Assembly: GCF_000204055.1 (NCBI RefSeq)
Contig: NW_006768780.1
Coordinates: 704,897 to 768,896, forward strand
Reading direction: 5' to 3'
Length of the DNA: 64,000 nt
Source: Melampsora larici-populina 98AG31
Lineage: Eukaryota > Basidiomycota > Pucciniomycetes > Pucciniales > Melampsoraceae
Below the pieces are notes generated by a model, which had not been told where the DNA came from, searched no databases, and worked only from the letters and a program-made list of their open reading frames with translations. Below, piece by piece: positions 4,060 to 41,645 of this stretch. Numbering within the stretch: the stretch's first letter is position 1; each line of letters opens with the position of its first letter. A program made the position numbers and the translations under genes.

Positions 4060-4816
4060 TTTCGTATGCTCCTAGATCTGGTAGGAGAAAAAGTGGCAAA
4101 AACCAAAAAGGTCTAAAGCGCTGGTGATAAGTATATGCTTATGTTGGATTTAAATCAACAACAAAGCTGAGGACACACCTAAAGCGCTGGTGATAAGTAT
4201 ATGCTTATGTTGGATTTAAATCAACAACAAAGCTGAGGACACACCTGGAGATGTGGAATTTGATGGAAGAATAAGAAGGTGATGGACGAATTGAGAAAAA
4301 TAGCGAAATATGAGTGAGTGATTTTCATTTATAAGAGAAATTTAATAAAAGAGAAATAAGAGAGATAACAAATATGCAGACCTAAAGCGCTGGTGATAAG
4401 TATATGCTTATGTTGGATTTAAATCAACAACAAAGCTGAGGACACACCTGGAGATGTGGAATTTGATGGAAGAATAAGAAGGTGATGGACGAATTGAGAA
4501 AAATAGCGAAATATGAGTGAGTGAAGAAAACAAATACAAGGCTACAGAAGACACTATTTATACAGCACAAAAGTCTTGCAGGGCCTACAATAGTCACACA
4601 ATCATTCACGCTACAAAAGTCCATTTGTTCCTTATTTCATTATCCATCTATACCAAGCCATCTTGTGTTCCAATACCAAGCCATCTTATCCGGTCTGTTG
4701 TTAGTTATATGGTAAGTTGGTTAGAAACGATGTTAGGGGTTTAGCGCAACGAGAAAAAGTATTAGTCTAGTCTAAAATATACAAATTTAACTAGACTAGA
4801 ATAATTAATTACGAAA
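4060..4816 (-). repeat. 3' LTR of the copia element (left copy)
   Basis: 757 bp. On the element strand it begins TTTCGTAATTAA, supplies the last codons and stop of the polyprotein, and ends ...ATACGAAA at 4060. It matches the right LTR except for 19 extra bases (around 4630-4650) and a block of about 21 nt just inside the TTTCGTAATTAA end (4784-4804). Confidence 0.85.
4113..4523 (-). repeat. Internal tandem and direct repeats in the left copia LTR
   Basis: A 66-bp unit occurs at 4113-4178 and 4179-4244 in tandem and again at 4382-4447. The 142-bp block 4179-4320 recurs at 4382-4523. Read on the element strand the 66-bp unit begins GTGTGT and ends CTTTAG. The same arrangement is present in the right LTR at 9024-9434. 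Confidence 0.9.
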
Positions 4817-8970: not shown

Positions 8971-9709
8971 TTTCGTATGCTCCTAGATCTGGTAGGAGAA
9001 AAAGTGGCAAAAACCAAAAAGGTCTAAAGCGCTGGTGATAAGTATATGCTTATGTTGGATTTAAATCAACAACAAAGCTGAGGACACACCTAAAGCGCTG
9101 GTGATAAGTATATGCTTATGTTGGATTTAAATCAACAACAAAGCTGAGGACACACCTGGAGATGTGGAATTTGATGGAAGAATAAGAAGGTGATGGACGA
9201 ATTGAGAAAAATAGCGAAATATGAGTGAGTGATTTTCATTTATAAGAGAAATTTAATAAAAGAGAAATAAGAGAGATAACAAATATGCAGACCTAAAGCG
9301 CTGGTGATAAGTATATGCTTATGTTGGATTTAAATCAACAACAAAGCTGAGGACACACCTGGAGATGTGGAATTTGATGGAAGAATAAGAAGGTGATGGA
9401 CGAATTGAGAAAAATAGCGAAATATGAGTGAGTGAAGAAAACAAATACAAGGCTACAGAAGACACTATTTATACAGCACAAAAGTCTTGCAGGGCCTACA
9501 ATAGTCACACAATCATTCACGCTACAAAAGTCCATTTGTCTATACCAAGCCATCTTGTGTTCCAATACCAAGCCATCTTATCCGGTCTGTTGTTAGTTAT
9601 ATGGTAAGTTGGTTAGAAACGATGTTAGGGGTTTAGCGCAACGAGAAAAAGTATTAGTCTAGTCTAAAATATACAGCTCTAAATAGTGGAATCCTAGTTA
9701 ATTACGAAA
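8971..9709 (-). repeat. 5' LTR of the copia element (right copy)
   Basis: 739 bp, followed on the right by the GATTC target duplication. It lacks 19 bases present in the left LTR and differs from it over about 21 nt at 9676-9697. No primer-binding site starting with TGG is seen next to its end; the adjacent sequence on the element strand reads CATTATCAGTAC, so priming by an internal tRNA fragment is possible but unproven. Confidence 0.85.
9024..9434 (-). repeat. Internal tandem and direct repeats in the right copia LTR
   Basis: Same arrangement as in the left LTR: 66-bp units at 9024-9089, 9090-9155 and 9293-9358, and a 142-bp block at 9090-9231 repeated at 9293-9434. Confidence 0.9.
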
Positions 9710-35769: not shown

Positions 35770-38033
35770 TGTTAGATAGTCTTGAAAATCAATTGTATAA
35801 GTGCTAGAAATGTTTGATAGAAAGATATGAGATTCACCAAACTTCACAGAGTCCCTCAAACATTCTCACGCCCAAAGTCTTCATTCAGCTGCAAGGTGGA
35901 AGAATTCCAGCCCCAAAATGCTCAATGGGTGTTTGGGCATAGGAATGTGGAAAAGTCAGAGAGCTTGATGACATGTGAGATATTTGGGGTACCTCATGAG
36001 AAGCAAGTCATTTCCCATAATTCATACAGTAAATTCCATCAAGGATGAAATCTCGAACTTTTCAAAATCACCACATGGTCCGTGCGAAGCGCAGCACCGG
36101 AGTCGGATTTTTGGCGTGAGTTCCGCCAGGGTATTTTCACAAAATCCATCATTCCACCTGCTCGAAAAACTCCCTAATCAACACTCTGTGAGCGCATAAT
36201 AAAGAGGGAGTGCTGGCTCCTCCTCTTCAATTTGCCGCCCTCGGCATCTCACAATCTCACAGGCTCAAAAAATTATGTACCATTATCTGGGGCAAACTCG
36301 GGGCCAAATGGTCTCAAATGAATTTCAGATGCTGCCCGTCAGATTGGTTTTGGTTGCCAAAAAACGACCTGAGATTAAAAATCATTTGGTGCTTAGCAAG
36401 CATCTTAAAGAAAATGCATTATATATTGCATTACAAGCCATGACATCACTGCTGCTTCTGTGTGAGGGTGACACTGTCCTACAAACCAGTGTCAGCACAT
36501 GTTATCAATACAGACATGAGTCCACCGGGACAAAAGCTTATGTGAGATTTCTTCCCAAGCCCATTGATCAATCAAAAAGGTGTGCTGTGGATACCCATAG
36601 CGCTCATCTAGAAGTTGTGAGGAGGGTAGCATTTGTCAGCAACTACCCATGCACAAATGTTTGATACCATTTGGAATGGAGAGCACAAACCTGGGCTTGG
36701 ATATACTCCGTCCAAAAGTGGCAACCCATCACATCAGTGTACACCAGCCTTTTGATCCTGTTGAGGACTTTGCCAATGCTAGTTTGGGCATCTCCGCCTG
36801 CACCACGCCATTGTTGATGATGATTTGGGAACTCTTGATTGTTGAGATCAAGAAACATATGTAAGAACTGGAAGACTGTTATCTCTTGAATAGCCATGAA
36901 ATGGAATGTATGATAGGTCTTATCTACAAGTGAAGGAGGTTCTTGGCTGGGTGGATGGGGCTTGTGACCATCTAGCAAGAAATGAAATGAGGTGACCATC
37001 ATCCCTTTGGCTTTGATTGAGCCACCGGTGGATTGCACCTAAGAGATTCACAACGACCTGGTGCTGATTTGGGCTGGGCATATCTGTTTGTTACATATTC
37101 AATGTTAGACAAATTGTACACTGTGACTCAATTATATGTGTATTGGAGCTCCTTGTGAGTGGATATTACATACCAAAATACCTTTTCAATGGTCAGGGGG
37201 TCAATACGCCGGCTGTTCCAGACAAGTATCAGTTGTGTGTTGGCCTTACATGTGATGATGGCCCTGTTGGTATTTTTCACATTGAAAAATCCCAAAAGGT
37301 GTAGTGTGATGTGTATCAGATCTTTCCCAACCCCCCTGTGGATGGGATGGGATGGGATTTCAGGTGACCTTGCTGATGGCCAGCTTGTGGGTCAGGGGTA
37401 GGGAGGGGTTCAGATAGATTAGTTTCAGAACCCCCCACTCACTCAATAATTGGCCTTTGGTAATCAATGGGTGATTGTGACTCCAATAATTTATATCAAA
37501 CAAAAATAATTGAATGAAGTCTTGAGATTTCTTTCTTATATTAGTGAAGGCTATTCATCATGATTGTATATTACATTCTCAACTTTTCATAATCAAATTG
37601 AATTATACTACTGTTTATACCTCCATGTCAACTACCACTGTTCCCATCAGGTGGTTCCCATCACAGTTACTCACATGATCTCAATTTGTGAATTCATGAA
37701 TAAACTTGGTGGTTTTACACCTAAAGAGTTTATGGTGACCTTTCTATCATCAAACCATCCCAACCTGGTCTACCGGAGGTGCCAAATGAAAGTGGGTATG
37801 GGTGGCAAACAAACTTGATCAATTGTTAACAATTTGTGCAAATTGGCAGGGAGGTGTGAAAAAGGCCAAGCGGACTTGGAGGAATTAATCTTAGAGGAGG
37901 TCAACATTTTGTCTGCATAGATGAGTTGTAGGTGAGGTCCCCACGCGGAAATCACCACTTCTCGGCTCTTGATCCCAGGCTTTGACTATATTGATTGGTC
38001 AAGAAGTCCAAAGTGGTGTCTATCCCCGTGGAG
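35770..38033. other. Intergenic stretch with unrecognised coding-like remnants
   Basis: Frames at 36275-36664 (+) and 36643-37038 (-) are about 130 codons each. The minus one (with LNNQEFPNHHQQWRGAGGDAQ) has a protein-like composition and may be a decayed transposon gene, but I cannot assign it. No host gene is supported. Confidence 0.35.
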
Positions 38034-38258
38034 TGTTGGTGTTCAATCAACAATTTGAGCATCAGGTACTCAACACTTGAATATTATGGTTATTATTCAA
38101 ATTGACATATGATTAGAGAAGGAGGATTTACAAGATGATGTGCTAAAAAGAAGGAGAATCTGAATTGAGAATAGTGACATCATAATCAAGATAGTACTTA
38201 TAATAGTCATGTGTTGTTTGCAATGTGTGATCTCTTTCCTCATCTTTGGAAAGAGAAC

Positions 38259-38327
38259 GTACATACATTAATTTTTTTTTCTCATTGCTATGTTTATGAT
38301 ATGTGTATCTGAAATCATGTTTTCCAG
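38259..38327 (+). other. Intron-like interval A in the LTR
   Basis: 69 nt, GTACAT at the start, pyrimidine-rich before TTTTCCAG at the end. Absent from the second copy, where AAGAGAAC is followed directly by TTTCTTCAATC (one base changed). Confidence 0.75.
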
Positions 38328-38411
38328 ATTTCTTCAATCTTCTCCATAGATCAGTTGATAAAACTACTCAACTTTACTTTATTAGCCTTATCCGCTACAC
38401 CTTTATAATAG

Positions 38412-38484
38412 GTATTTCATTGATCAAACTTATATTTCTATTAGAACTTATTTATCTGACTTATCCTGTACGTTGATGTTGTAG
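38412..38484 (+). other. Intron-like interval B in the LTR
   Basis: 73 nt, GTATTT at the start and GTTGTAG at the end. In the second copy TTTATAATAG is joined directly to GTCAGCTTTC. Confidence 0.75.
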
Positions 38485-38637
38485 GTCAGCTTTCTATCTC
38501 ACTAGGACTATAGACTGAAAGTCTTATCACATTGTGTATCACATTATCAGGTAATTTATAGTATCTTTGGAAAGAGAACCTTTCTTCAATCTTCTCCATA
38601 GATCAGTTGAGCAAACTACTCATCTTTACTTTATTAG

Positions 38638-38794
38638 GGGTACACAAACATCTCAACCCGACCTTAAAAGCCCATTCAAAAAACCCGTGCCAACCCGATT
38701 GATTTTGAGTTTTTAGAGCTAAAAAATCCAAAAATCAATCGGGTTGCCATGGGTTTTATTAGGTTGGGTTGAGATGCTTGTGTACAGCTATCAT
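38638..38794. mobile_element. 157-bp inverted-repeat insertion (MITE) in the second LTR copy
   Basis: The outer parts (GTACACAAACATCTCAACCC and its complement with few changes, then AACCCGATTGATTTT) pair across a short centre. The first LTR copy has the uninterrupted site TTATTAG-CCTTATCC, which shows that this is an insertion later than the duplication. No clear target duplicate is seen. Confidence 0.7.
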
Positions 38795-38920
38795 CCTTAT
38801 CCGCTACACCTTTATAATAGGTCAGCTTTCTATCTCACTATGACTAGAGACTATAAATCTTCTCACGTTGGTTACCACATTATCAGGTCAACCGTGTTTG
38901 AATCATTTCAGACATTTTCA

Positions 38921-38932
38921 TGGTAGCAAGAG
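38921..38932 (+). other. Primer-binding site of the old copia element
   Basis: TGGTAGCAAGAG directly follows the LTR end, as expected for priming by a tRNA 3' end of the initiator-Met type. Confidence 0.65.
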
Positions 38933-39980
38933 ATACATATTATTTGATCCATGATCATACTGTTGAATGAGTGATCACGAGCTCCAATCTACTTCCATCA
39001 AAAACTTAGCTCCGTCTGCTCACAAATTTGAAGAAGACAATGACAAAGACAGTGAACAGACCATCCTAAACATATCAGAATCTCTAACTCAAAAGCAACC
39101 ACCTTTATCATCCAAAGAAAACATGTCTCAAAGCATCTCGTCATCACAAATTCCGCCAGTGCAACCTCCATTATCAATGAAAGCAACGGACAGAACTCTT
39201 CAAGCCATCCATGTTAATCAGGGTTTATGACAAATTGTCCCAAGTGAACAGTTGAATGATTAGGGGATACATAGTAGAATCTGGCCACAAGATTTAAATT
39301 TACAGCCCAATGAGATCTGGCCAAAAATCCGTCCACATGGCCAGATTCAACTTTGTATCCCCTAGATGTAACTTTTTCAGTTGGACATCCAACATAATTT
39401 CAAGCTTAGATTCAATCTGGTATGCTGGATATTTAGAATCAGACAACATCAAAGACAAAAAAAGATCTATTATTCACAAAGTAGCAAAGAAGTGTATCAC
39501 TTCTTGGATCCCCAAGCAACTTGATCCCACCAACAGAGCTTGTTTTGAGCCAAAGATCACTGAGTATTCTTCATCCGGTCCAAAGATTGAAAGTCTACCC
39601 TCAAAATTATGGAACACTATTGTCAATCATCACACTGGTAGATCTAATGAATTTTGTCTGCTACTAGAACAATATTTGAACCTAATTGTCCAGTCTCCGT
39701 CTACGCCCCTTTTGGATCATTTGGAACATTTTCAGAAAACTGTAAGTTCAAGTCAGGTGGTGGTAATGTGTTGAAGTGTGCAATCGACATAGAGAGAGTA
39801 ATCAGTTACAAAATTAGAGAAGAGTCGGATATACGAGAAAGGTATTAACTTGAAAATTGCAATCAAGGAAAAGGAGACTTACAGATTAATTAATTGCCCC
39901 AATGAGTTTCAATCAACGAGTTACTTATAACAGTTGTCTCTCTTCAATTTACTTCTCTTTCCCCATCTTTGGGAAGAGAA

Positions 39981-40086
39981 GTGAGTTCATTTTTATCTCT
40001 TTCTCTTTATCTCTTTCTCTTCATTGAATACTTATGTTGGTTTATCTGATGTGTTTCAATTTTCTCTTTATCGAATATGTTATAAG
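39981..40086 (+). other. Intron-like interval A in the solo LTR
   Basis: 106 nt, GTGAGT at the start, T/C-rich body, TTATAAG at the end. In the second copy GGGAAGAGAA joins directly to TCTTATTAT. Confidence 0.85.
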
Positions 40087-40174
40087 TCTTATTATTCCAT
40101 CGAGTAGAACCAAAGATCAGTTATCACCTTGTGATAACTTATAGCTAACATTATAAACCCTGACTTGATAACAG

Positions 40175-40243
40175 GTATTGAATGTCTCCTTATTAATTAT
40201 CTTTCACTTACATTATTTCTGATTAGTTCATTATTGTTATTAG
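40175..40243 (+). other. Intron-like interval B in the solo LTR
   Basis: 69 nt, GTATTG at the start and TGTTATTAG at the end. In the second copy TTGATAACAG joins directly to GTCAGAGTC. Confidence 0.85.
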
Positions 40244-41645
40244 GTCAGAGTCTTTTCTCGTAGAGCATCTTGTAGAAGGTCGTGCTTATCATAGCTTTAG
40301 CTTATGCTATTAGGTGAATACATTTAATCTTTGGGAAGAGAATCTTATTATCTCATCGAGTAGAACCAAAGATCAGTTATCAACTTGTGATAACTTATAG
40401 CTAACATTATAAACCCTGACTTGATAACAGGTCAGAGTCTTTTCTCGTAGAGCATCTTGTAGAAGGTCGTGCTTATCATAGCTTTAGCTTATGCTATTAG
40501 ATCCCATATCCGAAGACTCTCATTCTTTCTCATAATGTTTCCGATGATTACCTGGGGCAGAAGTTACTCATCTCTCTGAATAATGCTCACTTTGAGGATG
40601 CAAAATCCATAGCCAATCAAGGCATCATGAATTACAATAAAGTTGTATTGGCTCTCAAGAAACAAATGATCACCATAACTATTTTACGGGGTGCTAGACC
40701 TGTTCAACATGCTGTTCAACAAGTCAATTGGGTCACTGAAGCCAGTGCTATCTCAAGTAACAACCACTTTGCCAACAAATGCACTAAGAAGAAATGCCTT
40801 GGCATTAATCATTCTCCCAATCTTTGTTTCAAGAAGCCTGGAAATGAGCACATGCAAAAGGAGTGGATAGTTTGTTTGGGGCAATGGAAAGGTGAAGTTC
40901 CTTCAAACTTACCTACTGCCTCAGCTATAGCTGCATCAAACTCCAAACCCTCTATTGAAGAGCTTGAAGCATATTTTAATTGGATGTTGACAAGCCATGT
41001 GTCCGTGGTCCGGATTTCTTCTTCTCACGTAAAGGATGGCACTATCAAGGCTTTGATTGATACTGCAGTGTCACATCACATGTGTATTGACAAGGATGTT
41101 GTTCATACCTACAAAGATATTCCAACCTTGAATCAATCATTAACCTTAGCTGGAGGTTCCGCCTCTCTGCCTATCCCCGGGAGAGGTTTGGTTCACATTA
41201 CTGGTCCGACTGGCAATGTCTTTGAGCTAGTTGACTGCTTACATGTTCCTGAGTTAAAACAAATCTTGATATGTGGTACTATCCTGCTTAAGAATGATTT
41301 TATAACTTTCAAGGATCATGATAAATTCAAGATCTCTCAGAACGGAAACTAGCTTTCATTGGTAACTTTATGAAGGATGTCAACTTGCTTTGTGTGAAAG
41401 TGAGGATTACTTGTGATTCTGATTCACCTTTGGCCTCTTTGAATGACACCAGACTCATTCATTGGCGATTAGGTCATCCCAGCTTACAATATTTGAAAAC
41501 CATGCTGGCTGAGAATAGTGTGTTACGCATAGGGGATTTAAAGTCAATTGCTCTTCCTTTGTTTATTGACTGCAATTCATGTGACCTTTCACAGGGTGAA
41601 AAAGCTTCTCACTCTTCCACTCGAGAAATCATACATTTTCATGGA

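Follow-up and report, generated by a model that had tools for sequence, protein, structure and literature searches.

Intron-containing and intron-free copies of a leader lie in tandem in the long terminal repeats of a Melampsora larici-populina retrotransposon family

Introns in RNA that is reverse-transcribed should vanish within one cycle. How, then, can a retrotransposon have long terminal repeats (LTRs) in which the same leader stands twice, once with two introns and once exactly without them? The question is raised by a 64,000-nucleotide (nt) stretch of the genome of Melampsora larici-populina 98AG31 (contig NW_006768780.1, positions 704,897 to 768,896; hereafter the window), in which two LTRs have this structure: LTR B, a 764-bp solo LTR of copia type at 39769-40532, and LTR A at 38034-38920, the left LTR of the copia-type element in whose gag-pol region LTR B sits. 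The tandem of an intron-containing and an intron-free copy is a family-wide design. From the sequences, we consider it likely that the second copy is a spliced 5' leader that was reverse-transcribed and became linked to the unspliced first copy during first-strand transfer, and that it is made anew at or near each retrotransposition.

LTR B begins with TGTTGAAG, ends with TTTCTCA and is flanked by the target-site duplication TAATG (39764-39768 and 40533-40537), which bears out its earlier designation as a solo LTR. Read on the plus strand, it consists of U3 (39769-39964, with a TATA at 39926); a 16-nt first exon, E1, ATCTTTGGGAAGAGAA (39965-39980); intron 1 (39981-40086, GTGAGT..AAG); E2, 88 nt with CAG at its end (40087-40174); intron 2 (40175-40243, GTATTG..TAG); E3, 70 nt with TAG at its end (40244-40313); a 13-nt linker, GTGAATACATTTA (40314-40326); the intron-free copy 2, E1'-E2'-E3' (40327-40500); and a 32-nt U5 tail (40501-40532), the end of which is defined by the target duplication. 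Removal of both GT..AG intervals from 39965-40313 leaves 174 nt that agree with copy 2 at 171/174 positions, and E3 shows 0 mismatches between the copies. The first-pass annotation of the window had stated that both intervals are exactly missing from copy 2 and that its last 70-nt segment is identical to that of copy 1, and both statements hold. Absent from that annotation was the linker, whose motif is conserved and in which a donor-like GTGAAT and an AATACA hexamer directly precede E1'. A scan of 37500-41500 against Rfam at gathering thresholds gave 0 matches.

The same plan recurs throughout the genome. A DNA search with 39965-40500 yielded at least 51 matches, and the 98.3-Mb genome contains 171 exact occurrences of the 16-mer ATCTTTGGRAAGAGAA that forms the first exon (reversed control, 0), with 100 of these places listed. 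E1 followed by a 5' splice site was found at 84 genomic sites and the linker followed by E1' at 65 (controls, 0); at 48 of the 84, a strict second copy, that is, linker plus E1', lies 303-369 nt downstream. Among 62 tandems annotated from fetched loci, 49 have copies that differ by two GT..AG-bounded intervals (one junction mismatch allowed). The GT..AG ends of these intervals and their exact absence from the processed copy mark them as probable spliceosomal introns of the leader. The other 13 include tandems with changed splice sites (for example, loci L078 and L102) and irregular cases. One element (L053/L054) has no intron 1 in copy 1 of either LTR, and L039 has no intron 2 in copy 1. When each element was represented by a single LTR and two clean introns were required, 44 clean tandems remained, in which intron 1 measures 57-114 nt and intron 2 60-84 nt. 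Intron lengths vary between elements, and therefore each copy 2 lacks the introns of its own element. A chance origin of the tandem in LTR B is ruled out by the exact 16-nt exon, the two intron-sized GT..AG gaps and the repetition of the plan in other LTRs.

When was the second copy made? In the clean tandems, the exons of copy 1 and copy 2 are a median 98.7% alike (range 87.8-100); between elements the median identity is 72.9%, and to the nearest other element it is 85.5%. The closest sequence is the element's own copy 2 in 42/44 tandems, with 2 ties. In a tree of the 88 exon sequences, built with a quick method and SH-aLRT support, same-LTR copies are sisters in 40/44 tandems, while the non-sister pairs (L046, L060, L092 and L099) are each placed with a near-identical element. 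The copy-1/copy-2 label changes 43 times on this tree, and at least 36 of these changes are forced by starred branches. The first-pass annotation had proposed such a tree: copies cluster within LTRs, and first copies do not group together. It had also held that recurrence speaks for a mechanism rather than an accident, which is supported on a scale beyond the two events it considered, and that the tandems of LTR A and LTR B probably arose separately. Within-LTR grouping favors the latter view, but its picture of two origins is better replaced by re-making at or near each insertion. In 7 full-length elements with a tandem in both LTRs, the LTR pairs differ at 36/4516 positions (0.80%) and the copies at 21/1963 (1.07%, 13 of 14 LTRs measured). 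At the time of insertion, therefore, the two copies resembled each other about as closely as the two LTRs did, which is what regeneration at insertion predicts, unlike inheritance of an old duplicate. A single ancestral event passed on as DNA is rejected by the within-LTR grouping and by this likeness.

Bases -1 to -6 before E1 and E1' agree in 6, 16, 5, 6, 16 and 12 of 54 tandems, as predicted from composition or lower (6.6, 13.8, 5.0, 12.1, 15.3 and 11.5), whereas the ninth base of E1 agrees in 54/54 and the entire 16-mer is identical in 47/54. Homology therefore begins sharply at the A of ATCTTTGG, which would be the terminus of a strong-stop DNA extended to the cap. In LTR B, E1 would accordingly hold the transcription start site and correspond to the R region. 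A TATA is found within 75 nt upstream in 46/50 distinct sites, mostly at -37 to -46, and in 12/49 of the preceding control stretches.

The linker starts with GTGAATA in 36/44 clean tandems and with GTAAT or GTAAA in the remaining 8. Within it, 41/44 have an AATAAA-like hexamer, most commonly AATACA (18) or AATAAA (13), which we take to resemble a poly(A) signal. TAG or CAG closes both E2 and E3 in 44/44; E1 ends at GAA or 1-2 bases later, never in AG among the sites listed. TAG is a more typical ending for a 3' splice site than for an exon that precedes a donor, so the linker donor may splice to acceptors at which E2' and E3' terminate, and a third intron would be delimited in this way. Such use would account for spliced copies with several E3 units: the number of units is one in 17 tandems, two in 23, three in 2 and four in 1, and a script detected none in 1. 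The triple L051, in which the linker is kept and a full additional spliced copy follows (its second step is among the 13 atypical tandems), is as expected when the third intron stays in. At L034, the spliced copy is followed by a U5-like stretch, after which the block of E2'-E3' plus U5-like stretch comes a second time.

A hairpin is formed by base pairing of the last part of U3 with E1 and the adjoining start of intron 1; its loop would hold the transcription start site. In LTR B, the 5' arm spans approximately 39946-39962 and E1 contributes to the 3' arm; the hairpin has a folding energy of -21.8 kcal/mol and a z of -5.07 relative to dinucleotide shuffles (LTR A, z -4.60). By comparison, RNA from the A of E1 onward gave z -0.91 and the surroundings of E1' gave z +0.66. 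In a sample of 86 sites, 50 of them distinct, the hairpin is present in 50/50 distinct sites (median -20.6 kcal/mol; z < -2 relative to simple letter shuffles). Watson-Crick combinations account for 150/200 at the four donor-side pairs, whereas 20,000 permutations that ignore kinship averaged 104 and never exceeded 127; sliding the register by 1 to 3 reduces the count to 23 to 82. Mapped onto the tree, 4 changes fall on donor base 4 and 4 on the base opposite it, and the rows comprise 19 A-T and 10 C-G pairs, none crossed (29/29 scoreable). The uncounted rows (15/44) are 9 with a shifted donor, 5 with a non-pairing partner base (L023, L026, L029, L031 and L065) and 1 misread (L046). These data support the pairing, and in the 3'-terminal part of the RNA the predicted fold could mask both E1 and the donor. 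E2 (40087-40174 in LTR B) and related loci show another potential stem, NNTATC..GATANN, in 32/44 tandems (GT/AC in 19, GC/GC in 7 and six others). The change from GT/AC to GC/GC is compensatory, and the leader may therefore contain a second RNA stem.

The mechanism that we propose would start with transcription from the A of ATCTTTGG. The 5' leader would be spliced to E1-E2-E3, leaving the GT..AG difference that is seen in the DNA; linker, E1' and E2' of the 5' LTR could additionally be removed as the third intron, giving rise to extra E3 units. The RNA would end near E1' of the 3' LTR, just past the AATAAA-like linker, so that the terminal redundancy R would essentially equal E1. Minus-strand strong-stop DNA containing the spliced leader would then pair via E1 with E1', and its extension through linker, E3, intron 2, E2, intron 1, E1 and U3 would generate the order U3, unspliced copy, linker, spliced copy, U5. 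The 5' end of the RNA would lack the U3 arm, so the hairpin of U3 end, E1 and intron-1 donor would be possible only in the RNA of the 3' LTR, where it could hide both donor and E1. This offers a reason why the 3' LTR would remain unspliced and why transfer would occur to E1' instead of E1. We regard the chances as evenly balanced that this scheme holds in full: that the 16-nt exon is the terminal redundancy, that a start in the hairpin loop leaves the RNA spliced at its 5' end and unspliced at its 3' end, that transfer writes both forms into each daughter, and that each LTR thus records the splicing of its parent.

Only somewhat less probable is a version in which the tandem arises by this route but the hairpin is a promoter palindrome, or a stem with another role, and leaves the donor of the 3' LTR unmasked. 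In support of this version, the U3 arm is also rich in pyrimidines and adjoins the presumed start, and the 10-bp core is nearly invariant and so unable to show covariation. Against this, the pairing reaches into intron 1, where both sides change (GTAA/TTAC, GTAC/GTAC) in step in every scoreable row, the five non-pairing rows standing apart.

Several observations weigh against regeneration of the tandem at each insertion or against the hairpin and start site that it invokes. A strict second copy is missing at 36/84 sites with E1 and donor, and among 20 loci listed, 16 have E1 and donor without a strict partner. Some partnerless loci are disrupted by other sequence (for example, L010, L084 and L107) and L074 has a damaged E1', while L055, L070, L073, L083, L103, L104, L105 and L106 resemble complete one-copy LTRs. 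Repeated exons were found in 5/31 checked loci with a single exact E1. Three elements combine a short 5' LTR with a tandem 3' LTR (L055/L032, L062/L034 and L073/L074); L108, 5.1 kb from the tandem L035, appears to belong to a fourth, judging from position, and L069/L070 apparently show the reverse arrangement, with the short LTR as the 3' LTR. Exchange or template slippage between the repeats may explain such mixed and one-copy LTRs. With a TATA approximately 40 nt upstream, transcription could also begin approximately 10 nt upstream of E1. The expected gradient in E3 arrays, with the 5' unit newest, has 8 cases for it, 3 against and 15 ties (p 0.11). For the hairpin, the permutations take no account of relatedness, and the tree gives 3 independent pairs, all concordant but too few for significance. 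A search with one pattern for a tRNA gene matching the sequence that resembles a primer-binding site (PBS) gave 0 matches, and the primer tRNA was not found. Finally, the support as a whole comes from genomic DNA.

The one-copy LTRs also bear on a different history, in which a spliced leader was captured once, long ago, and inherited as DNA, with gene conversion or unequal exchange keeping the copies alike. Exchange between repeats clearly occurs, as these LTRs attest, and the numbers of E3 units differ between the two LTRs of one element. We nevertheless find this history improbable: the copies are as alike as LTR pairs of the same insertion and group within LTRs with the intron difference retained, and conversion would have to hit exons of 70-95 nt in nearly every LTR yet skip the introns. 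Less probable again, and in our estimate quite unlikely, is post-integration recombination between a genomic LTR and free spliced cDNA; exact intron loss would likewise be expected, but two separate repairs would rarely give a tandem in both LTRs of 7 full-length elements, and E1 marks the junction in every case, next to a linker that is conserved. Plain tandem duplication followed by gain of two introns in copy 1, which presence and absence alone would permit because they leave the direction undefined, we reject as highly implausible, since it needs repeated gain at the same two sites in each of a set of deeply diverged elements whose copies within an LTR are nearly identical.

By domain order and target duplications, the family belongs to the Ty1/copia LTR retrotransposons. 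Five pieces of the full-length relative L025 were scanned and revealed a copia-type gag (Retrotran_gag_2, 2e-7) and a reverse transcriptase (RVT_2, 6.6e-45); the piece before RVT_2 contains integrase-type domains (SH3_retrovirus, 1.1e-18; rve, 25.1 bits, under its 32.6 cut-off). Penelope-like elements are defined by a Penelope-type reverse transcriptase, and the RVT_2 and integrase-type domains found instead exclude this class. Short target duplications bound the LTRs (TAATG around LTR B, ATTTT at L025), and TGGTAGC-type sequence, a candidate PBS, lies directly 3' of LTR A and further LTRs. A search of viral contigs with one exact pattern gave 0 matches.

LTR A, also on the plus strand, follows the plan of LTR B with more diverged copies: E1 at 38242-38258, intron 1 at 38259-38327, intron 2 at 38412-38484, E3 at 38485-38550, the linker at 38551-38562 and copy 2 at 38563 to 38885. 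The divergence noted earlier for the copies in LTR A (38242-38885) is borne out by 11 mismatches in a 73-nt block around exon 3; a separate script counted 10 over exon 3. Directly after the LTR, at 38921, lies the PBS-like TGGTAGCAAGAG (TGGTAGC). Copy 2 is interrupted by a 157-nt insertion (approximately 38637-38793) with inverted ends (GGGTACACAAACATCTCAACCC..) that looks like a small DNA transposon. An inverted-repeat stretch (TAGGGGATACATAGTAGAATCTGGCCA.. and its near complement) was spotted by eye in the gag region of the element, at approximately 39255-39370. Elsewhere in the window, an identical perfect 66-bp x 2 tandem occurs at 4113-4246 and 9024-9157, 4.9 kb apart, and may be the LTR pair of another element.

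Parts of this design have counterparts elsewhere. Some Penelope-like elements also retain introns despite reverse transcription, but they use another reverse transcriptase and insertion route, in contrast to the copia domains found here. In retroviral LTRs such as those of HIV-1, a splice donor reduces use of the promoter-proximal poly(A) site. There, too, the two RNA ends are treated differently for splicing and polyadenylation; in the present family, however, the linker has a hexamer that overlaps a donor, and reverse transcription would return the spliced leader to DNA. EVADE, likewise of Ty1/copia type, and Ogre are intron-bearing LTR retrotransposons with spliced RNA, their introns serving subgenomic RNAs; the part of that source considered here (PMC12786077) describes no LTR that has introns together with a spliced copy in tandem. 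Solo LTRs of taeniid ta-TRIM elements initiate transcripts that are spliced from donors within the LTR; according to the portion of the report considered, these donors join downstream sequence, and no spliced DNA copy lies inside the LTR (PMC4558846). A limited literature search, too small to call the design unpublished, brought no LTR carrying its own spliced leader to our notice in the parts of the sources covered.

The family thus appears to retain its introns by combining a 5' end that is spliced with a 3' end that is not, and its insertions contain a DNA copy of what would be the processed leader. If true, this would represent a new means of defining R, of retaining retroelement introns and of giving one sequence different roles at the 5' and 3' ends of an RNA, and it would make the splicing history of the family readable from genome sequence alone.
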